64,000 nucleotides of DNA. It comes from Argopecten irradians (lineage: Eukaryota > Mollusca > Bivalvia > Pectinida > Pectinidae). Shown here piece by piece: positions 7,371 through 53,762 of this stretch; the first letter of the stretch is position 1, and every line of letters begins with the position of its first letter. The notes under the pieces were generated by a model that saw only the letters and a list, made by a program, of their open reading frames with translations, was not told where the DNA came from and searched no databases. Made by a program: the position numbers and the translations under genes. The DNA lies in the NCBI RefSeq assembly GCF_041381155.1, contig NC_091142.1, forward strand, positions 30,617,528 through 30,681,527, written 5' to 3'.

Positions 7371-7478
7371 GCAAAACTGTAAAACGGTATATTTTTCTCT
7401 GTCTTGATTAAGGTCGTATTACATTCTATTCTGTGCATCCACTGTTTTCTTAAGGTAAACTAAATCCCTACGTTGTAG

Positions 7479-9764
7479 ATGTTGCAGACAAGTCTATTCC
7501 TACTGATGATTGTCCACGTGACCAGGAGCTGGGATCCTGACGCCGGTCTCATCACCTCATGGACCAAGATGTCTGGGGTCACTGCGAACGCGTCGAGTGG
7601 TAATTATCCGGAACGCGTTCTGGACGGCGATGACAACACGCATTGGTCTTCCGGTTCCTGCCTGCCCACAGGTTACATGACACGGCCGGGCCTTAATGTC
7701 CTTCTGAATCTGTGTCGGACGTCTGCTTGTCAGATAAACGGAGTGTCCACCAGTCAGGGTTTCCACGAGTTGACCGACGCATCTACGTACACATCACTCC
7801 AAATTGATATTGGACAGAACAACAAGGCTATGTTAACTTTAGACACGAGTGGTAAGGACTTCAAGCAACTGTCTGTGTGGGGAGGTTACCATGGAGATAC
7901 CCATCTGAAGGTTGTGGACAGTAATGGAACGGAAACATTGATACACACCCTTACTTCGAGCGACAACTATCAGCGCAAAACGTTCGATATCTCGACTCAA
8001 GTGAACAGAATTAGTCTGGAATCGGCTACCGCTTTCCGGGTGACGGAGATAGCGGCCCTAGGTCGGGTGAACTGTTTGGAGAGGATAGTGGTAGACTTGG
8101 GGGTACTACGAAGGATTGGCGTGGTACGCACCAGGCACTGGGCAGGTACAAACACGGCCTATAGTACCAGTCTCGCCCTTTCTACAGACGGACAAACCTG
8201 GGACAAGGTCAGAGATTTACAGCCCTCCGCGTTACATGCCGTTACGACCAGACTTCAATCTCCGACCGAGTACAGATACATAGCGCTGGAATATAACGTA
8301 AAACTCAGGAACTACAACAAAGTCTACTGCTGGGAGGTAGATGCCTACGACGAGTTTGGGGTCTGGGGAGCCGCGCCCAGTGCTCAGCCGAATCCCGTGT
8401 GTATACGGGATATGCTGGGGGTGAATGGTATATGGGGATGGGGATACAATCCTAAAGGACAGACATTGTACAGTCGAGTCGCATCCTACGCGAGGAATTA
8501 CCACAATCTCAACTGGGACGTAAAGGACCCGGATTTTGACCCTCAGTTTGACCAGATGGGTGAAGGCCATGGCACTAATGCGTCCTGGTGGCTTAATTGG
8601 GACAATGAATATGGTAAGTGGCGGGCGGCCGGTCTCCAAGTAGACGCGTCAATCCAGTTCCTAAACAAGACCTTCGGAGCCAGTGTTTGGAACACACCGA
8701 GACAATCTGCATACAATTATGGTAGGGAATTCGCTCGGCATTTTGGTCCTCAAGTCGGCAACGGCTTGGTGACTGCCTTCGAGGTAGGGAACGAGCCATG
8801 GGATTACAGTGCAGACTTCTATGCCTCAGTGTTAAAGGGCATGGCTACTGGGGCTAGAGACGTCGATCAAATAATAAACGTCCTTCCTGGGGCGTTCCAG
8901 GCGTATACGATTGCCCCAGAGGAACCGAAACATGGAAATTACATCGGGACAAGGGTAAAACAAGGTGTGTCACCGTTCATTAGTGCCATCAATATGCATT
9001 CCTACAGCTTTATAACTAACGACAATGGTAAACGGGTGGCCACATATCCGGAGCATAAAGATTCCACATTCAACAGTATTCGGAACATGATTCGGTGGCG
9101 GGACACTAATGTTCCATATAAACCGATCTGGCTGACGGAATGGGGCTGGGACGCTGACGGCGGTCAGGAGGACTGCGCAGCCTCCGAGTGCGTAACAGAG
9201 AGGGCCCAGGCTATCTACGGCGCTCGTGGTCTCTTTCTGTCTGCACGTCTTGGCCTCGCTAGGGCCACGTGGTATTTCTACGCGAACTTACCGACCTGCA
9301 ACACCTTGTTCTGTAGAAGCGGTCTAACTACATCTACGAAACATAACTTCACAGAGAAAGCAGTTTTTCATATGTTTGAGTCAGTGCTGAGTCGACTGGG
9401 AGAAGCTCACTTCCGCTCTGTGGTGACGGAGGATGAACATGGATATGTATACTTATTTGGACCATCAGGCACAACTTTACAGAAAATCACTCATCTTGTC
9501 GCCTGGCTTCCCGTCGATGCCGGTGACGTTTCAACAAGAACGGTAACACTAACGATGCCGATGGCATTAACACCAGTGGCGACATGGCGTCTAACCGGAG
9601 GTGACGTAGCTGTGACGGAGGATTCAAACCCTGTCGTGGACGGCCTCGTTATGACATTGTCCTTGACAACCAGGCCCCTGATTGTACAGGTGCAATCTCC
9701 AATCCCTGTATCGATCATTGAATCCGGGGACAAACGAAAATTTGAAACTTTTTTCGAGATGTGA
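7479..9764 (+). CDS. Secreted clan GH-A-like glycoside hydrolase with discoidin-like domain, copy A
   Basis: Uninterrupted 761-codon gene. A signal peptide (about 1-17) is followed by a discoidin-like (F5/8 C or CBM32-like) sandwich: first half about 33-72 with RVLDGDDNTHW, second half about 203-291 with VVDLG, STDGQTW and YRYIALEY. A second sandwich-like segment (about 73-197) is embedded between them. Residues 305-640 look like a clan GH-A TIM barrel: Glu439 in VGNEPW fits the acid/base and Glu554 in WLTEWGWD the nucleophile. A beta-rich tail follows. Sequons (NAS, NGT, NAS, NKT, NFT) suit secretion. An in-frame TAG directly before the ATG fixes the start unless an upstream exon is coding. 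Substrate and CAZy family are not recognised; a beta-glycosidase or glycanase acting on extracellular or dietary polysaccharide is inference. The gene is visibly richer in G+C than its flanks. Paralogue at 20800-23046. Confidence 0.9.
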   Translation: MLQTSLFLLMIVHVTRSWDPDAGLITSWTKMSGVTANASSGNYPERVLDGDDNTHWSSGSCLPTGYMTRPGLNVLLNLCRTSACQINGVSTSQGFHELTDASTYTSLQIDIGQNNKAMLTLDTSGKDFKQLSVWGGYHGDTHLKVVDSNGTETLIHTLTSSDNYQRKTFDISTQVNRISLESATAFRVTEIAALGRVNCLERIVVDLGVLRRIGVVRTRHWAGTNTAYSTSLALSTDGQTWDKVRDLQPSALHAVTTRLQSPTEYRYIALEYNVKLRNYNKVYCWEVDAYDEFGVWGAAPSAQPNPVCIRDMLGVNGIWGWGYNPKGQTLYSRVASYARNYHNLNWDVKDPDFDPQFDQMGEGHGTNASWWLNWDNEYGKWRAAGLQVDASIQFLNKTFGASVWNTPRQSAYNYGREFARHFGPQVGNGLVTAFEVGNEPWDYSADFYASVLKGMATGARDVDQIINVLPGAFQAYTIAPEEPKHGNYIGTRVKQGVSPFISAINMHSYSFITNDNGKRVATYPEHKDSTFNSIRNMIRWRDTNVPYKPIWLTEWGWDADGGQEDCAASECVTERAQAIYGARGLFLSARLGLARATWYFYANLPTCNTLFCRSGLTTSTKHNFTEKAVFHMFESVLSRLGEAHFRSVVTEDEHGYVYLFGPSGTTLQKITHLVAWLPVDAGDVSTRTVTLTMPMALTPVATWRLTGGDVAVTEDSNPVVDGLVMTLSLTTRPLIVQVQSPIPVSIIESGDKRKFETFFEM

Positions 9765-10079: not shown

Positions 10080-10085
10080 AATAAA
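10080..10085 (+). terminator. Polyadenylation signal, hydrolase gene A
   Basis: AATAAA about 316 bp after the stop, in the matching place to the AATAAA of copy B (23415-23420). It lies just before the minisatellite. No other canonical signal closer to the stop was noticed. Confidence 0.55.
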
Positions 10086-10171: not shown

Positions 10172-12046
10172 AGTCTACAGTTAAATGGATGTAAGACAGT
10201 TGTAGTGGAGAGCCATGCTCACAAGTCGACGATTAAATTGATGTTAGACAGTTGTAGTGGAGGGTCATGCTCACTGGTTACAGTTAAATGGATGCTAGAC
10301 AGTTGTAGTTGAGGGTCATGCTCACTGGTTACAGTTAAATGGATGTTAGACAGTTGTAGTTGAGGGTCATGCTCACTGGTTACAGTTAAATGGATGTTAG
10401 ACAGCTGTAATGGAGGGTCATGTTCACTAGTCGACAGTTAAATGGATATTAGACAGTTGTAATGTAGGACCAAGCTCACTAGTCGACAGTTAAATGGATG
10501 TTAGACAGTTGTAGTGGAGGGCCATGCTCACTGGTTACAGTTAAATGGATGCTAGACAGTTGTAGTTGAGGGTCATGCTCACTGGTTACAGTTAAATGGA
10601 TGTTAGACAGTTGTAGTTGAGGGTCATGCTCACTGGTTACAGTTAAATGGATGTTAGACAGCTGTAATGGAGGGTCATGTTCACTAGTCGACAGTTAAAT
10701 GGATATTAGACAGTTGTAATGTAGGACCAAGCTCACTAGTCGACAGTTAAATGGATGTTAGACAGTTGTAGTGGAGGGCCATGCTCACTGGTTACAGTTA
10801 AATGGATGTTAGACAGTTGTAATGGAGGGTCATGTTCACTAGTCGACAGTTAAATGGATATTAGACAGTTGTAATGTAGGACCAAGCTCACTAGTCGACA
10901 GTTAAATGGATGTTAGACAGTTGTAGTGGAGGGCCATGTTCACTAGTTGACAGTTAAATTGATGTTAGAAAGTTGTAATGGAGCGCCATGCTCACTAGTC
11001 GACAGTTAAATGAATGTTAGACAATTGTAGTGGAGGGCCATGTTAACTAGTTGACAGTTAAATGGATGTTAGACAGTTGTAATGGAGGGCCATGCTCACT
11101 AGTCGACAGTTAAATGAATGTTAGACAATTGTAGTGGAGGGCCATGTTAACTAGTTGACAGTTAAATGGATATTAGACAGTTGTAATGGAGGGCCATGCT
11201 CACTAGTCGACAGTTAAATGAATGTTAGATAATTGTAGTGGAGGGCCATGTTAACTAGTTGACAGTTAAATTGATGTTAGACAGTTGTTGTGGAGGGCCA
11301 TGCTCACTAGTCGACAATTAAATGGATGTTCGACAGTTGTAGTGGAGGACAATGCTCACTAGTCGACAGTTAAATGGATGTTAGGCGGTTGTAGTGGAGG
11401 GCCATGCTCACTAATCGACAGATAAATGGTTGTAAGATAGGTGTAGTGGAGGGCCATGCTCACTAGTCGACAGTTAAATGAATGTTAGGCGGTTGTAGTG
11501 GAGGGCCATGCTCACTAGTCGACAGATAAATGGTTGTAAGACAGGTGTAGTGGAGGGCCATGCTCACTAGTCGACAGTTAAATGGATGTTAGACAGTTGT
11601 AGTTGAGGGTCATGCTCACTGGTTGCAGTTAAATGGATGTTAGACAGTTGTAGTTGAGGGTCATGCTCACTGGTTACAGTTAAATGGATGTTAGACAGTT
11701 GTAATGGAGGATCATGTTCACTAGTCGACAGTTAAATGGATATTTGACAGTTGTAATGTAGGACCAAGCTCACTAGTCGACAGTTAAATGGATGTTAGAC
11801 AGTTGTAGTGGAGGGCCATGCTCACAAGTCGACGATTAAATGGATGTTAGACAGTTGTAGTTGAGGGTCATGCTCACTGGTTACAGTTAAATGGATGTTA
11901 GACAGTTGTAATGGAGGGTCATGTTCACTAGTCGACAGTTAAATGGATATTAGACAGTTGTAATGTAGGACCAAGCTCACTAGTCTACAGTTAAATGGAT
12001 GTTAGACATTTGCAGTGGAGGGCCATGTTCACTAGTTGACAGTTAA
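10172..12046. repeat. 52-bp minisatellite downstream of gene A, with higher-order repeat
   Basis: About 36 units of 51-52 bp, each containing CAGTTAAATGGATGTTAGAC and GCTCACTAGTCGA or GCTCACTGGTTA. A rare variant (GATGCTAGAC at 10291 and 10548) shows a 257-bp higher-order period made of five units. The same family occurs 3' of gene B (23505-24815) with other variants. It ends directly against the NHL relic. Confidence 0.93.
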
Positions 12047-12054
12047 ATGGGGAA

Positions 12055-12950
12055 AAAAATAAGCACGTTCTTAAATAACTTCACTGGTTGGTGACATCAT
12101 AAGATAGGCATCATTGAGAACAAGGAAAGCGTTTGCTATTTGTGACGACGAACAAGTCAAGACAAGGGATAGTTCTTCTTCTTAGACTTATAAGGAATAC
12201 GAACGTTAACTATGATGACTCTATAACTAGGCATTTCCTCCGTTATTACGAGCACTCGAACACGTTGCTAGGGGCAGCTTACCTTCCGTTCCGGAAGGTT
12301 ATCATCACATGTTATGCCCATGTTTACTTCTAGTTTTTGGACTACACCTCTATCATAGATACACATATATACGTCACCGAACGACATTACCTCTAGACCA
12401 CTGGGAGTCCATTTGGACTCATGAACAAATTTTAGGTCTCCTTTCGTTTTTCATACATACAAGTTCCCTTCGTCTTGAGTCTGAAACAAGCACGTATCGA
12501 TAAGCAAAGCACGTGACACACGCTGGGGTACGGAATATCCCGGACTTTCGATAAGCAAAGCACGTGACACACGCTGGGGTAAGGAATATCCCGGACTTTC
12601 GATAAGCAAAGCACGTGACACACGCTGGGGTACGGAATATCCCGGACTTTCGATAAGCAAAGCACGTGACACACGCTGGGGTACGGAATATCCCGGACTT
12701 TCGATAAGCAAAGCACGTGACACACGCTGGGGTACGGAATATCCCGGACTTTCGATAAGCAAAGCACGTGACACACGCTGGGGTACGGAATATCCCGGAC
12801 TTAGTGTCATCCGTCAACAGCACATCACCATCAAACGACAGAATATCTACTGATCCGTGTCCTTTCGCATAACATCCGGCCATAAGGCGCATTTCGTCTA
12901 GACAGGCAATGGATTGGCACTTCCGGTTAGTTCGTCTTAATGAACTTTAT
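12055..12950 (-). pseudogene. NHL/beta-propeller gene relic, copy A
   Basis: Aligns with the intact-looking gene at 25236-26267, covering the part equivalent to about 25312-25957. It lacks the N-terminal third and the last residues, and shows frame disruptions and small deletions. In the middle, the segment for a 17-residue propeller strand is amplified to six 51-bp copies (about 12490-12802), where copy B has one. All six keep one frame open by chance of length (51 is divisible by 3), but the frame leaves the homologous one soon after. It probably makes no functional protein; what product it might give is unknown. Confidence 0.8.
12490..12802. repeat. 51-bp tandem repeat inside the NHL relic
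   Basis: Six nearly identical units containing AAGCAAAGCACGTGACACAC and GGAATATCCCGGACTT. Only one or two single-base differences are seen among them, implying recent expansion. The unit contains the E-box palindrome CACGTG. Confidence 0.92.
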
Positions 12951-20426: not shown

Positions 20427-20799
20427 CAGATTGGATACATAGGACAATTCTGGATGTAACTTGAGAATTCTCAACCGTGAGTCTAATTTTACCATGATAT
20501 TTCATCGGTCCATTCCTACTCCTACATTCCATGATGGTACATTATAGAATAGGCGAAATGAATCACCGATAACCGACGGTTCTAACTCACTCATAAACAA
20601 AGTGTTTATAGCACACAAAGAGAGAGAGCATGTGTTCAAATGTATCCCCTGAAGAGTGTGTGAGTTTTGTAAGTAAAGTGTAAACTCCAGTATAAGTGCA
20701 GTAAACAGTGTATTTCTTTAAGTCTTGATTTAGGGCTTATTTCATTTTATTCTGCGCTTCCATTGCTTCTATGACTCTAACTAAATCCGTACGTTGTAG

Positions 20800-23046
20800 A
20801 TGTTGCAGATAAGTCTGGTCCTACTGGCGATTGTCCACGTGACCAGGAGCTGGGATCCTGACGCCGGTCTCATCACCTCATGGACCAAGATGTCTGGGGT
20901 CACTGCGAACGCGTCAAGTGGTAATAATCCGGAACGCGTTCTGGACGGCGATGACAACACACATTGGACTTCCGGTTCCTGTCTGCCCACAGGGTACATG
21001 ACACGCCCGGGCCTTAATGTCCTTCTGAATCTGTGTCGGACGTCTGCTTGTCAGATAAACGGAGTGTCCACCAGTCAGGGTTTCAACGAGCTGACCGACG
21101 CATCTACGTACACATCACACCAGATTGACATTGGACAGAACAACAAGGCTAGTTTAACCATGGACACGAGTGGTAAAACCTTCACTCAGTTGTCTGTGTG
21201 GGGTGTATACCACGGAGACACCCAGATGAAGGTGGCGGACATCAATGGTACGGAAACATTGATACACACACTCACTTCGAGCGACAACTATCAGCGCAAA
21301 ACGTTCGACATCTCTACTCAAGTAAACACTATTACTCTGGAATCGGCTACCGCTTTCCGGGTGACGGAGATAGCGGCCCTAGGTCGGGTGGACTGTGTGG
21401 AGAGGATAGTGGTAGACTTGGGGGTACTTCGACGGATTGGCGTGGTACGCACTAGGCACTGGGCAGGTACAAACACGGCCTATAGTACCAGTCTCGCCCT
21501 TTCTACAGACGGACAAACTTGGGACAAGGTCAGAGATTTACAACCCTCCGCGTTACATGCCGTTACGACCCGACTTCAATCTCCTACCGAGTACAGATAC
21601 ATAGCGCTGGAATATAACGTCAAACTGAGGAACTACAACAAAGTCTACTGCTGGGAGGTAGATGCCTACGACGAGTTTGGGATTTGGGGAGCCGCGCCCA
21701 CTGCACAGCCGAACTCTGTGTGTATACGGGATTTGCTGGGTGTAAATGGCATATGGGGGTGGGGACATAATCCTAACGGCCAGGCACTGTACAGTCGAGT
21801 CGCATCCTACGCGAGGAATTACCACAATCTCGACTGGGACGTAAAGGACCCGGATTTCGATCCTCAGTTTGACCAGATGGGTGAAGGCCATGGCACTAAT
21901 GCGTCCTGGTGGCTTAATTGGGACAATGAATATGGTAAGTGGCGGGCGGCCGGTCTCCAAGTAGACGCGTCAATCCAGTTCCTAAACAAGACCTTCGGAG
22001 CCAGTGTTTGGAACACACCGAGACAATCTGCATACAATTATGGTAGGGAATTCGCTCGGCATTTTGGTCCTCAAGTCGGCAACGGCTTGGTGACTGCCTT
22101 CGAGGTAGGGAACGAGCCATGGGATTACAGTGCAGACTTCTATGCCTCAGTGTTAGAGGGCATGGCTACTGGGGCTAGAGACGTCGATCAAATAATAAAC
22201 GTCCTTCCTGGGGCGTTCCAGGCGTATACGATTGCCCCAGAGGAACCCAGACATGGTAATTACATCGGCACAAGGGTAAAACAAGGCGTGTCAACGTTCA
22301 TCAGTGTCGTCAATATGCATTCCTACAGCTTTATAACTAACGACAATGGTAAACGGGTGGCCACATATCCGGAGCATAAAGATTCCACATTCAACAGTAT
22401 TCGGAACATGATTCGGTGGCGGGACACTAACGTCCCTTGTAAACCGATCTGGCTGACGGAATGGGGCTGGGACGCTGACGGCGGTCAGGAGGACTGCGCA
22501 GCCTCCGAATGTGTAACAGAGAGGGCCCAGGCTATCTACGGCGCTCGTGGTCTCTTTCTGTCTGCACGTCTTGGCCTCGCTAGGGCCACGTGGTATTTCT
22601 ACGCGAACTCGCCGACCTGTAACACCTTGTTCTGTAGAAGCGGTCTAACTACATCTACGAAGCATAACTTCACAGAGAAAGCAGTTTTTCATATGTTTGA
22701 GGCAGTGCTGAGTCGACTGGGAGAAGCTCACTTCCGCTCTGTGGTGACGGAGGATGAACATGGATATGTATACTTATTTGGACCATCAGGCACAACTTTA
22801 CAGAAAATCACTCATCTTGTCGCCTGGCTTCCCGTCGATGCCGGTGACGTTTCAACACGGACGGTAACACTAACGATGCCGATGGCATTAACACCAGTGG
22901 CGACATTGCGTCTAACCGGAGGTGACGTAGCTGTGACGGAGGATTCAAACCCTGTCGTGGACGGCCTCGTTATGACATTGTCCTTGACAACCAGGCCCCT
23001 GATTGTACAGGTGCAATCTCCAATCCCTGTATCGACCATTGGATGA
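20800..23046 (+). CDS. Secreted clan GH-A-like glycoside hydrolase with discoidin-like domain, copy B
   Basis: 748 codons with the same layout as copy A: signal peptide, split discoidin-like domain with an embedded second sandwich, TIM-barrel hydrolase domain and beta-rich tail. The putative catalytic residues stay at Glu439 (VGNEPW) and Glu554 (WLTEWGWD); no length change separates the copies up to there. Differences crowd in the first half: around residues 117-150 the embedded sandwich differs at many sites, whereas the barrel is nearly identical. Near the end a 4-base difference shifts the frame into an early TGA, so the last residues end STIG and the tail is 13 residues shorter than in A. 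One barrel change, Tyr to Cys in NVPCKP, adds an unpaired-looking cysteine. An in-frame TAG directly precedes the ATG. Substrate unknown. Confidence 0.9.
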   Translation: MLQISLVLLAIVHVTRSWDPDAGLITSWTKMSGVTANASSGNNPERVLDGDDNTHWTSGSCLPTGYMTRPGLNVLLNLCRTSACQINGVSTSQGFNELTDASTYTSHQIDIGQNNKASLTMDTSGKTFTQLSVWGVYHGDTQMKVADINGTETLIHTLTSSDNYQRKTFDISTQVNTITLESATAFRVTEIAALGRVDCVERIVVDLGVLRRIGVVRTRHWAGTNTAYSTSLALSTDGQTWDKVRDLQPSALHAVTTRLQSPTEYRYIALEYNVKLRNYNKVYCWEVDAYDEFGIWGAAPTAQPNSVCIRDLLGVNGIWGWGHNPNGQALYSRVASYARNYHNLDWDVKDPDFDPQFDQMGEGHGTNASWWLNWDNEYGKWRAAGLQVDASIQFLNKTFGASVWNTPRQSAYNYGREFARHFGPQVGNGLVTAFEVGNEPWDYSADFYASVLEGMATGARDVDQIINVLPGAFQAYTIAPEEPRHGNYIGTRVKQGVSTFISVVNMHSYSFITNDNGKRVATYPEHKDSTFNSIRNMIRWRDTNVPCKPIWLTEWGWDADGGQEDCAASECVTERAQAIYGARGLFLSARLGLARATWYFYANSPTCNTLFCRSGLTTSTKHNFTEKAVFHMFEAVLSRLGEAHFRSVVTEDEHGYVYLFGPSGTTLQKITHLVAWLPVDAGDVSTRTVTLTMPMALTPVATLRLTGGDVAVTEDSNPVVDGLVMTLSLTTRPLIVQVQSPIPVSTIG

Positions 23047-23414
23047 ATCCGGGGACAAAAGAAAATTCGAAACTTTCAGATATGGTTATACAAAACAAAT
23101 TTGATTTTACGTTTATCATTGTGTTGCAGTATTAAAATTTTATTGTATTGCGGAATGTGTTTAAACAGCTTTATAAAACAGTACGTGTATGGATAAGGCT
23201 ATACATAAATACAATACAGGAACAAAGTAATTAGAGTCAACTGATACACTATACAAAGTGGTTCGATATTTAACCGAATATGATCTGGGGCCCTAAAACA
23301 TCTGTTAATGTTCTATGGACACTGAGACAGGTTGCTGTTACTGATTTCCAGGGTGTTTTTGCGCAGCACTGAAACAAGTTGTGTTTATACTCCCCTGTAA
23401 GTACATCGATATGA

Positions 23415-23420
23415 AATAAA
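23415..23420 (+). terminator. Polyadenylation signal, hydrolase gene B
   Basis: AATAAA about 369 bp after the stop, matching the position of 10080-10085 in copy A. Confidence 0.55.
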
Positions 23421-23504
23421 AGCACTCTTTATATGATCGTGACGTGAAGCTGTCCTTCTCTGGCGAACTTTACATCCCAGTTATAGCTGAATAGTTCACA
23501 TAGC

Positions 23505-24815
23505 TCACTAGTCGACAGTTAAATGGATGGTAGACAGTTGTAGTGGAGAGCAATGTTCACTAGTCAACAGTTAAATGGATGTTAGACAGTTGTAGAGGAG
23601 GGCCATGCTCACTATTCGACATTTAAATAGATGTTAGGCAGTTGTAGAGGAGGGCCATGCTCACTAGTCGACAGTTAAATGGATGGTAGACAGTTGTAGT
23701 GGAGAGCCATGCTCACTAGTCGACAGTTAAATGGATGTTAGACAGTTGTAGTGGAGGGCCATGCTCACTAGTCGACGGTTAAATGGATGGTAGACAGTTG
23801 TAGTGGAGAGCCATGCTCACTAGTCGACAGTTAAATGGGTGTTAGACAGTTGTAGAGTAGGGCCATGCTCACTATTCGACAGTTAAATGGATGGTAGACA
23901 GTTGTAGAGTAGGGCCATGCTCACTAGTCGACAGTTAAATGGATGTTAGACAGTTGTAGAGGAGGGCCATGCTCACTAGTCGACAGTTAAATGGATGGTA
24001 GACAGTTGTAGTGGAGAGCCATGCTCACTAGTCGACAGTTAAATGGATGTTAGACAGTTGTAGTGGAGGGCCAAACTCACTAGTCGACAGTTAAATGGAT
24101 GGTAGACAGTTTTAGTGGAGAGCCATGCTCACTAGTCGACAGTTAAATGGATGTTAGACAGTTGTAGAGGAGGGCCATGTTCACTGGTCGACAGTTAAAA
24201 GGATGTTAGACAGTTGTAGTGGAGGTCCATGCTCACTAGTCGACAGTTAAATGGATGTTACAGTTGTAGTGGAGGGCCATGCTCACTAGTCGACAGCTAA
24301 ATGGATGGTAGACAGTTGTAGAGTAGGGCCATGCTCACTAGTCGACAGTTAAATGGATGTTAGACAGTTGTAGAGGAGGGCCATGCTCACTAGTCGACAG
24401 TTAAATGGATGGTAGACAGTTGTAGTGGAGAGCCATGCTCACTAGTCGACAGTTAAATGGATGTTAGACAGTTGAAGTGGAGGGCCAAGCTCACTAGTCG
24501 ACAGTTAAATGGATGGTAGACAGTTGTAGTGGAGAGCCATGCTCACTAGTCGACAGTTAAATGGATTTTAGACAGTTGTAGAGGAGGGCCATGCTCACTG
24601 GTCGACAATTAAATGGATGTTAGACAGTTGTAGTGGAGGGCCATGCTCACTAGTCGACAGTTAAATGGATGTTAGACAGTTGTAGTGGAGGGCCATGCTC
24701 ACTAGTCGACAGTTAAATGGATGTCAGACAGTTGTAGTGGAGGGCCATGCTCACTAGTCGACAGTTAAATGGATGTTAGACAATTGTAGTGGAGGGCCAT
24801 GCTTGCTAGTCTTTT
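23505..24815. repeat. 52-bp minisatellite downstream of gene B
   Basis: About 25 units of the same 52-bp family as 10172-12046 (CACTAGTCGACAGTTAAATG). Here the common variants are GATGGTAGAC and TTGTAGAGGAGG, largely absent from copy A, so the arrays have been homogenised separately. Confidence 0.93.
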
Positions 24816-25235: not shown

Positions 25236-26267
25236 CTAGCTCACAATTTGTGATTTTGTATTAGACATCATATAGCCAATAACCAAGTGTTGACCACTGG
25301 CTCTGCTCCTCCAAAACAAGCATGTCCTTAAATGACTTGACTGGTTGACAAGAACGTTATCATTCTGAACCAGGAAGGGAGCTGCTGCTTGAGACGAACA
25401 AGCCAAGAGCAGGGAATTGTACTTCTTCTTAGACTTATAAGGAATACATACGTTAACTATGATGACTCTATCACTAGGCATTTCCTCCGTTATCACGAGC
25501 ACTCTGTCTTCAGACAAACACGTTGCTAGGGGCAGCTTAGTTTCCACTTCCGGAAGATAATCACATGTTGTGCCCATGTTTACGTCTAATTTTTGGACTA
25601 CACCTCTATCATAGATACACATATATACGTCACCGGACGTCGTGACTCCTAGACCGCTAGGAGTCCCTTTGGGGTCATGAACAAATTTTAGTTCTCCTTT
25701 CGTTGTCACACATACAAGTTCCCTTCGTCCCGAGTCTGAAACAAGCACGTACCGACCAGCAAAGCACGTGACACACGCTGGGGTGCGGAATATACGGGAC
25801 TTGGTGTCATGCCTCTCTATAGAAAACAACACATCACCATCAAACGACAGAATATCTACTGATCCGTGTCCTATCTCACAGCATCCGGCCACAAGGCGCA
25901 TTTCATCCAGACAGGCAATGGATTGGTACTTCCGGTTTGTTCGTCTTGATGAACTTATCGACATTTTCCCGCCTTTTTCGGCGGAAATGAAGGTTATAGT
26001 CTGTTGCTGCGGCTGCGTCACAGCAACATGGGAGGATAGATAAAGCTTTGTGACGCCACACGGGTCCTCTAGTTTCACACTGTCGAACAAAGTCATTTGG
26101 AAGGTAAATCTTTTGACAGATTGATTTTCATTGTCAATGACGATGAAGGAGTCGGGAAGCACCGCGACATCAGTGAGAAGACATTGTGATTCATGTGGAA
26201 GTTTGGCACTTAAAACAGTCACAGGGTCCCGGAATATCTCGCGTAACGCCATGTTGACTAGATACAT
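25236..26267 (-). CDS. NHL-repeat/beta-propeller protein (TRIM-like C-terminal half)
   Basis: 343 codons without introns. The repeating pattern of short strands (SVDILSFDGDVLF, RYVLVSDSGRRELVCVTTKG, GLGVTTSGDVYMCIYDRG) is that of the beta-propeller at the C-terminus of TRIM2/3/71-like proteins, which are greatly expanded in bivalves. No RING, B-box or coiled coil is present, and none was seen upstream to about 27.5 kb, so either it is a stand-alone propeller or its N-terminal exons are lost or far away. The start could be the first Met or the sixth residue (MALREIF). It is convergent with hydrolase gene B across the minisatellite. Its duplicate at 12055-12950 is broken. TRIM-type propellers usually bind RNA or protein partners; the role here is unknown. 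Confidence 0.7.
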   Translation of the reverse strand: MYLVNMALREIFRDPVTVLSAKLPHESQCLLTDVAVLPDSFIVIDNENQSVKRFTFQMTLFDSVKLEDPCGVTKLYLSSHVAVTQPQQQTITFISAEKGGKMSISSSRRTNRKYQSIACLDEMRLVAGCCEIGHGSVDILSFDGDVLFSIERHDTKSRIFRTPACVTCFAGRYVLVSDSGRRELVCVTTKGELKFVHDPKGTPSGLGVTTSGDVYMCIYDRGVVQKLDVNMGTTCDYLPEVETKLPLATCLSEDRVLVITEEMPSDRVIIVNVCIPYKSKKKYNSLLLACSSQAAAPFLVQNDNVLVNQSSHLRTCLFWRSRASGQHLVIGYMMSNTKSQIVS

Positions 26268-27689
26268 ACTAGATTGACATCATTCGGGAATGCAGACTTC
26301 TAGTTACATTGAGGAGCACGTTCCTTGGCATTTATTGAAATGGTTGATATTAACTCTGGGTCAATCATAAACATTCACTCTGGGTTAATTATAAGTTTCA
26401 TTCATTGCAAAGAGTATTCAATACAAACGTACGTTGTTATGTATAGGTTACATTGTATACTACCAGTTCCATTCCAAGTAGTTCCATGTCAGATATTACT
26501 CAGCACGCGAGGGGTTATTCAGTAGAAAACTCTTGACGACATTATGTACAATTTATTTTGGTCCATTGATAACTGTCCAATACAATTTGACGCCGACAGG
26601 TAGTTATAACTGTTAACAAAAGCGGATCGAGGTGGTACTCACCTATATACACGTACACAGTGTGTTAGATATACTCCATTCCTGGAGTCATTGTTCCTTT
26701 AACACGTCACTGACCTCACATTCCGGATATACCATGTACCTTCTCGTACCCTGATGTTACTATTTGCATCTGTACAGGTCCAGCACATGTTTTGGTGACG
26801 TTTTTAGTTGTTGCACCGCGTTCCATTTCTCCCGACTTTTACCTGTCCCTATATACCTGGCCTACCTGTACATACCTGTACCTACACCTTACACTCTGGT
26901 GTGTATATTTAAATGTATTGACGGCCAGTGATCTGCCAGTATTGATCGATATTGGGTTATGGTCCGTCATAAAGCCGAGGTGTTCTACTGAAATCAAAAG
27001 ATAAATGTTTGGATCTTGTCTACCACACAGGAATTTCCTCTTTATCAGCAGTGAAAGTTCAAATCTGTTGACGTCATCGAATGACATCGTTAGTTTTAAA
27101 ATATACGACACATTACTAGTGTACCTATGGAATGACGGATATTTGATCCCATGTTTTATTCCATATCTTCGCTGTAGTTTCAACATAATAACCTCTAAAC
27201 TGAAAATTATATCTTAGTCTCCTTCCTTGTATTCGACCTAATATCAAAGACTTTTCTCCGTTTCAATTCTCGATTGCACTGCAAACATCACGGTATGCTC
27301 TCGTTTATCATTTTAATTGTCACTTCTGTTTTTTTGTGACAATTTAAAAGAAAATCATACGTTCTGATGTCAACGTGGCAATAACTAATAAGTCCGTTTT
27401 TGTATTTGACATAAACGGCTTGCTTCACAGCTAATGAAACAACCATACAGCCATTACATTCCACAGTGAAAATGTATATATACAAGATATTCCCCATGTC
27501 ATTTCCCCGCTCTCTTTCGTTTGATTCACGGATATCAACATTAGTGATCTCATCAAACCATTCTGTGAGTCCACAGCACTGTTACGTGCGTTACCTGACG
27601 GACGTCATGCATTTCATGCAGCATCGCTAAGGGGGAACGAAAGTTAAACCACATTAAAATAATTGCATTTGCCTAGTATTTTGTGTTAC
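26268..27689. other. Intergenic, no gene recognised
   Basis: Contains the upstream region of the minus-strand NHL gene. Several 60-115-codon open frames on both strands overlap each other and match no family; none is called. Confidence 0.4.
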
Positions 27690-27714: not shown

Positions 27715-28125
27715 TTATGAGGTGACCTTGGACTTTATAATTGCCAACAAACGGCTAGGTATTGAATTATACGAAACCCATAAAATCGTTAGAAACAGCT
27801 GGTCTACTGATTCAATGTTCATTGTTTTGCAAAGTCCTTTGATTCTAAGCCACAAATTTTCAATAATATTATTATGTGCAGGCCATGTAATGGGTGGTAT
27901 ATTATTTTGCAGCTTAAAACACGTTTGTAACATATCGGCGAGATTATCATCTAGTATATTTTTGTATTTCTGGGCATTTATATTTCCGTCAACTTTACAA
28001 AAGTGCCTAGCGCGCTCATGTAATTCGCCTCTGTCCAGTTCGCATTCATATGGGCTATGAATGCCAACTGAGAAACGTTCAATGCTTAAATAATCGCACG
28101 AAGTGCACAGTGGCAGAGCCGCCAT
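27715..28125 (-). pseudogene. Tc1/mariner-type transposase fragment
   Basis: A 136-codon open frame whose C-terminal half reads like the end of a Tc1-type DDE transposase: GNINAQKYKNILDDNL, then ITWPAH...IIENLWLRIKG (compare the family's WPAQSPDLNPIENLW), then a run ending in SIPSRLLAIIKSK. The segment that normally carries the second catalytic Asp is missing between the two motifs, and the DNA-binding N-terminal half is absent, so it cannot be active. Terminal repeats were not found. Confidence 0.75.
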
Positions 28126-28264
28126 TTTGAAAAATCGCGAATACTTTAGTCATTGTTCCGTATGTTGTTGGCCCCATTAGGCAGAGTCAGTGCGATGAAG
28201 ACTGTATGGCAGTTTTATTGTCGATAACAGAATCCCGTATCCTCGTGCATGTGTGATCTGTTGC

Positions 28265-35181: not shown

Positions 35182-53762
<18,581 letters not shown>

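Follow-up and report, generated by a model that had tools for sequence, protein, structure and literature searches.

The Locus and Its Tandem Copy

The window, i. e. the whole stretch of 64,000 nucleotides from Argopecten irradians analysed here (placed at C9:30617528-30681527), carries a long open reading frame for a multidomain protein and a second copy of it in tandem. The features are as follows.

7479..9764, + strand: focal gene, an uninterrupted open reading frame of 761 codons
7479..7529, + strand: putative signal peptide (residues 1-17), recognised by eye; residues 2-14 are modelled as a helix
7530..7667, + strand: residues 18-63, conserved WDPDAG start, then the outer CBM32/F5_8C sandwich as far as the THWSSGSCLP motif
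7668..8075, + strand: residues 64-199, inner module inserted into the outer sandwich and modelled as beta-rich
8076..8351, + strand: residues 200-291, remainder of the outer CBM32/F5_8C sandwich (201-271 matched by Pfam)
8379..9398, + strand: residues 301-640, (beta/alpha)8 barrel, GH39-like according to the predicted model and fold matches
8793..8795, + strand: codon of Glu439 (GNEPW), the predicted acid/base, directly following strand 4
9138..9140, + strand: codon of Glu554, predicted nucleophile, in strand 7 (LTEWGWD)
9408..9701, + strand: residues 644-741, C-terminal beta-strand domain in the model
10080..10085, + strand: AATAAA 3' of the focal gene, a candidate polyadenylation signal
20703..23076, + strand: duplicated DNA block, 94% match to 7382-9751
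20800..23046, + strand: second tandem gene copy, 748 codons, both Glu retained

A search of the whole genome (846 Mb assembly, 1508 contigs) returned two matches, the focal gene and the 748-aa copy, which is 95% identical to it and is followed by another AATAAA at 23415. The scallop coding sequence is free of introns. Over 748 codons, the tandem copies show a dS of 0.13, a dN of 0.026 and a dN/dS of 0.19 (own Nei-Gojobori-type script), as would be expected if one or both of them are under purifying selection.

The surroundings contain long arrays of ~52-bp tandem repeats (10172-12050, 23471-24811 and 46981-50253), the first two of which, ~88% alike, each follow one of the gene copies. On the minus strand, a 347-aa open reading frame at 25236-26279 resembles an NHL-type propeller by eye, with no Pfam match; a partial copy ~13 kb away (12419-12946, minus strand) shows an in-frame repeat of SGIFRTPACVTCFAYRK, and both probably belong to the same tandem duplication as the hydrolase gene. 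Also on this strand are a Tc1/mariner-like transposase fragment, again by eye (27715-28149; WPAHNNIIENLWLRIK; no Pfam match at E<=0.01), and an Auts2 open reading frame identified by Pfam (36409-36909, E 2.7e-12). More minus-strand Pro/Arg/Glu-rich open reading frames, four of which were tested without a Pfam match, are found at 35-52 kb and may, judged by eye, be further exons of an AUTS2-like gene.

A Module Nested Within the CBM32-Like Domain

The first-pass annotation had described a secreted hydrolase with one beta-sandwich nested inside a discoidin-like domain. The nesting is confirmed, with residues 18-63 and 200-291 forming the outer module around residues 64-199. The outer module is recognised by Pfam as F5_F8_type_C (34.0 bits versus a curated cut-off of 28.2) and shows a discoidin jelly-roll fold in the predicted structure. 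It differs from CBM32/F5_8 type C modules such as chitosan-binding 4zxe, CBM32-6 of CpGH89 (4a42) and AlyQ (7d29) in that one loop is interrupted by the 136-residue inner module. The protein is probably secreted.

No sequence family was found for the inner module, whose best PDB profile match has an E of 0.065, and relatives such as L031, L034, L037 and L067 lack it. Its origin as a copy of the outer module was considered, yet no homology between the two was detected (hhalign of nine inner against four outer sequences, prob 6.2). A natural pair is provided by P0126 and P0138, two metagenome proteins placed among Saprospiraceae in the tree. Their catalytic parts are near-identical, while their N-terminal modules have diverged, being plain in P0126 and nested in P0138. 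Judging from these sequences, the difference looks like a swap or recombination of the whole N-terminal binding cassette rather than a clean excision of the insert. A single loss of the insert is rejected in view of at least five state changes on the tree, four of them forced by starred branches. Natural pairs of this kind offer a ready comparison for the effect of nesting on targeting.

The Predicted Catalytic Centre

The proposal that Glu439 and Glu554 constitute the catalytic pair of a clan GH-A barrel is supported by the prediction. In the predicted model, the (beta/alpha)8 barrel of this clan is formed, the Asn-Glu motif N438-E439 follows strand 433-436 (strand 4), and E554 lies within strand 550-555 (strand 7). 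E439, E554, N438, H507, E435 and E525 are invariant in 277/277 sequences, and R339, E377 and Y378 are kept in 276 of them, with one gap. This conservation argues against a catalytically dead lectin-like protein, as does the comparison of the tandem copies, which differ at 15 of 340 residues in the barrel (301-640) versus 14 of 136 in the inner module; we regard such a protein as extremely improbable. With the catalytic centre invariant across the family, an assay of one member would provide a lead for all, covering scallops, oysters, mussels and abalone as well as bacteria such as Crenothrix and Saprospiraceae.

Relation to GH39

The catalytic part was suspected to fall outside known families, and for curated collections this holds: Pfam recognises only the F5_F8_type_C part of the scallop protein and no catalytic family, and NCBIfam gives no match. 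A fold comparison with families such as 5, 39 and 79 had been expected to yield a TIM barrel of no confident family. The barrel and the lack of a curated family stood, whereas its isolation did not, as GH39 structures are closest. Among the best 50 VIA rows, the GH39 enzymes 5jvk and PslG rank above GH79-, GH30- and GH51-type rows (the Acidobacterium glucuronidase and heparanase rows are presumably GH79) by a clear margin for the predicted model, and PslG is also the best Foldseek match (E 1.4e-18). The GH39-type matches span the C-terminal domain (644-741) together with the barrel. Identities are low throughout: 19% to 5jvk from Bacteroides cellulosilyticus WH2, 17% to PslG, a GH39 endo-beta-glucanase acting on Psl (4zn2, 5bx9, 9g17), and 9-15% to the GH30, GH51 and GH79 enzymes of clan GH-A, whose Z lies below that of GH39. 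The matches to 5jvk and PslG begin at model residues 307 and 301, respectively, and neither of the two has anything equivalent to the N-terminal module. In BFVD, the top fold matches span the barrel and are phage proteins annotated as GH5.

Conceivably, the scallop protein is a remote member of GH39, perhaps a subfamily, with an insertion-bearing CBM32, set apart by sequence divergence only. Besides the structural ranking, this is favoured by direct profile matches to 5jvk (E 9.3e-6 with A1, 0.018 with the barrel alone) and PslG (0.019 and 0.066), and by the intermediate P0265, which bridges the scallop family and GH39 structures (PslG 1.4e-20, 5jvk 6.8e-11, beta-xylosidase 4ekj 1.4e-7). Through P0265, Glu165 and Glu276 of PslG align with Glu439 and Glu554, the nucleophile also directly. 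The Pfam GH39 model (PF01229), however, fails to match the scallop protein P0001 even at E<=10 and is reached by one of 40 barrel sequences, at E 0.058; the identities of 17-19% speak against membership as well. Furthermore, a search with the barrel alone returned 64 proteins among 2,351 candidates, 62 of them at E 3.5e-12 or better (many being family fragments, with P0253 very divergent), before dropping to two short relatives, P0265 (1.7e-4) and P0266 (5.1e-4), neither of which matches a Pfam model at the cut-off. We lean against this reading while taking it seriously. The evidence on GH39 membership is split: the curated model misses the scallop protein, while fold and active site agree. 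On the basis of the model, the scallop enzyme is predicted to work like a GH39 enzyme.

Distribution of the Family

The restriction to molluscs that had been suggested is refuted. A first protein search yielded 206 proteins at E<=0.001 (7,998 candidates scored). Among the matches listed (120 of 206) are 16 named mollusc genera, comprising bivalves and gastropods, as well as the brachiopod Lingula, the alga Astrephomene, Chloroflexota and Bacteroidota, with many bacterial proteins. The closest named relatives among them are from Pecten (77%), Ylistrum (71%) and Mizuhopecten (71%), all three of them scallops. A pattern-limited scan of a genome collection added 69 bacterial loci in Methylococcaceae and Crenothrix, other proteobacteria, Deltaproteobacteria, Saprospiraceae, Bacteroidales and other Bacteroidota, and one Chlorobiota bin. 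The original observation is confirmed as real and more than chance, and its interpretation is partly supported: enzyme class and architecture were right, the mollusc restriction was wrong.

Altogether, at least 265 distinct proteins came out of three protein searches, and almost all of them belong to the family, in full or as fragments. Most have no protein name, and the names of the others are mainly uncharacterised, hypothetical or discoidin domain-containing. The JGI label 'serine/threonine-protein kinase ATR' on P0037, P0056, P0064, P0065, P0091, P0162, P0211 and P0221 is unsupported by the sequence. The Astrephomene proteins P0097 and P0098 are paralogues with neighbouring gene numbers. 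A description of the family was not found in those portions available to us of the literature on GH39, PslG and new GH-A families, nested CBM32, scallop CAZymes, intronless or horizontally transferred bivalve glycosidases, mollusc-brachiopod gene transfer and the founding members, and a literature search for six LOC identifiers of relatives returned no paper.

Bacterial contamination as the source of the scallop genes is rejected: both copies lie on a contig spanning at least 30.68 Mb, an AUTS2-like exon shares the window, and relatives occur in the 16 mollusc genera. A phage or plasmid origin is likewise rejected, as tblastn against a phage and a plasmid collection gave no match and none of the 34 viral-contig stretches that fit a search pattern encodes a relative.

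Evolutionary History

In a tree of 132 rows, 19 mollusc rows fall into a single clade together with nine unnamed ones (SH-aLRT 99), within which the bivalves and those nine rows form another (99); Lingula and the alga join the molluscs at 95. A second tree, extended by EukProt rows and by an outgroup that is distant, keeps the mollusc clade (96) and pairs Lingula with the alga (85) at a position relative to the molluscs that differs from the first. Both trees come from quick searches in which SH-aLRT is the sole measure of support, and the root is the midpoint or a very distant outgroup (branch 9.6). With this caveat, bacterial and unnamed rows surround the mollusc clade. A single origin of the mollusc genes is supported by these sequences; one shared by molluscs and brachiopods is uncertain.

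The simplest reading is an old transfer from bacteria followed by vertical descent, with no donor lineage picked out, and the direction of transfer is uncertain since it depends on the root. Alternatively, the eukaryotic genes could go back to an early eukaryote by vertical descent, with losses in most lineages. The scattered members (molluscs, Lingula, Astrephomene and the EukProt transcriptomes P0235, P0236 and P0263) and the grouping of Lingula, alga and molluscs in the first tree would suit such a history. Once P0235 and P0236 are included, however, the eukaryotic rows split over several places (weak support; P0236 on a long branch), the scallop gene lacks introns, and the bacterial members are more diverse among the matches listed, so that we consider early-eukaryote descent improbable.

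Proposed Function and Gene Neighbourhoods

Taken together, the evidence probably reflects a secreted and active retaining glycoside hydrolase, on an uncharacterised branch of clan GH-A that splits off deeply next to GH39. The CBM32-like N-terminal module, with the second module nested in one loop, would hold a polysaccharide that the barrel cleaves by double displacement, with Glu554 as nucleophile and Glu439 as acid/base. The target would most likely be a beta-linked extracellular polysaccharide, as for the GH39 relative PslG; since scallops are filter feeders, an exopolysaccharide of microbes or algae is our best guess. The gene probably passed from bacteria into the mollusc line long ago and was inherited vertically, before a later tandem duplication in this scallop. 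A bolder version, whose prospects we put slightly short of even, is that the protein represents a glycoside hydrolase family of its own, the sister of GH39, directed at a polysaccharide for which no enzyme has yet been assigned. It would have moved from bacteria to the mollusc line, been kept since at least the bivalve/gastropod split, and carry an exchangeable targeting cassette with one sandwich folded inside another.

A real rival is that the enzyme acts not on food but on extracellular glycans made by the organism itself (matrix, mucus or sheath), which it would remodel by hydrolysis or transglycosylation. Long proline-rich linkers are typical of algal matrix proteins, and P0097 from Astrephomene has one, joining an extra discoidin-like part to the nested module and barrel; P0236, also eukaryotic, has a Ser-rich stretch and a hydrophobic tail at its end, GPI-like by eye. 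The gene of PslG sits within a polysaccharide-making operon. In the Bacteroidales clade (neighbours named from one representative each), a Dpp5-type S9 peptidase lies downstream in 20 of 25 loci, at 19-555 bp in 19 and at 2.4 kb in L036; two of the five loci missing it have less than 1 kb of downstream sequence. Further downstream are a nucleotide-sugar dehydrogenase (15/25), an epimerase and RmlD (14/25), and a phosphohexomutase (12/25). The conserved order is hydrolase, Dpp5 peptidase, DUF3078, nucleotide-sugar dehydrogenase, epimerase, RmlD and phosphohexomutase (the last not in L036), complete in L033, L035, L036, L041-L043, L048-L050, L053, L055 and L061 and partial in L040, L045 and L054. 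These neighbours could point to the cell's own glycans. Yet the block is a conserved chromosome order that may be coincidental, and beyond this clade a downstream Dpp5 peptidase occurs in a single locus, L019. Remodelling of own glycans appears rather unlikely, and a microbial or algal beta-linked polysaccharide is the favoured substrate in our analysis.

Outside the Bacteroidales clade, neighbours were taken as mechanical open reading frames rather than gene calls (up to two of 150-1100 aa per side); 128 were chosen in 43 loci, and 122 in 41 loci were scanned. A role as PUL enzyme finds no support, in that SusC, SusD and glycoside hydrolase families are missing from the 25 commonest of 147 families in these 122 frames, where rarer single matches are possible. 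Their commonest Pfam domain is the T9SS tail (nine). In the Crenothrix locus L001, a PA14 open reading frame runs into the start of the hydrolase gene.
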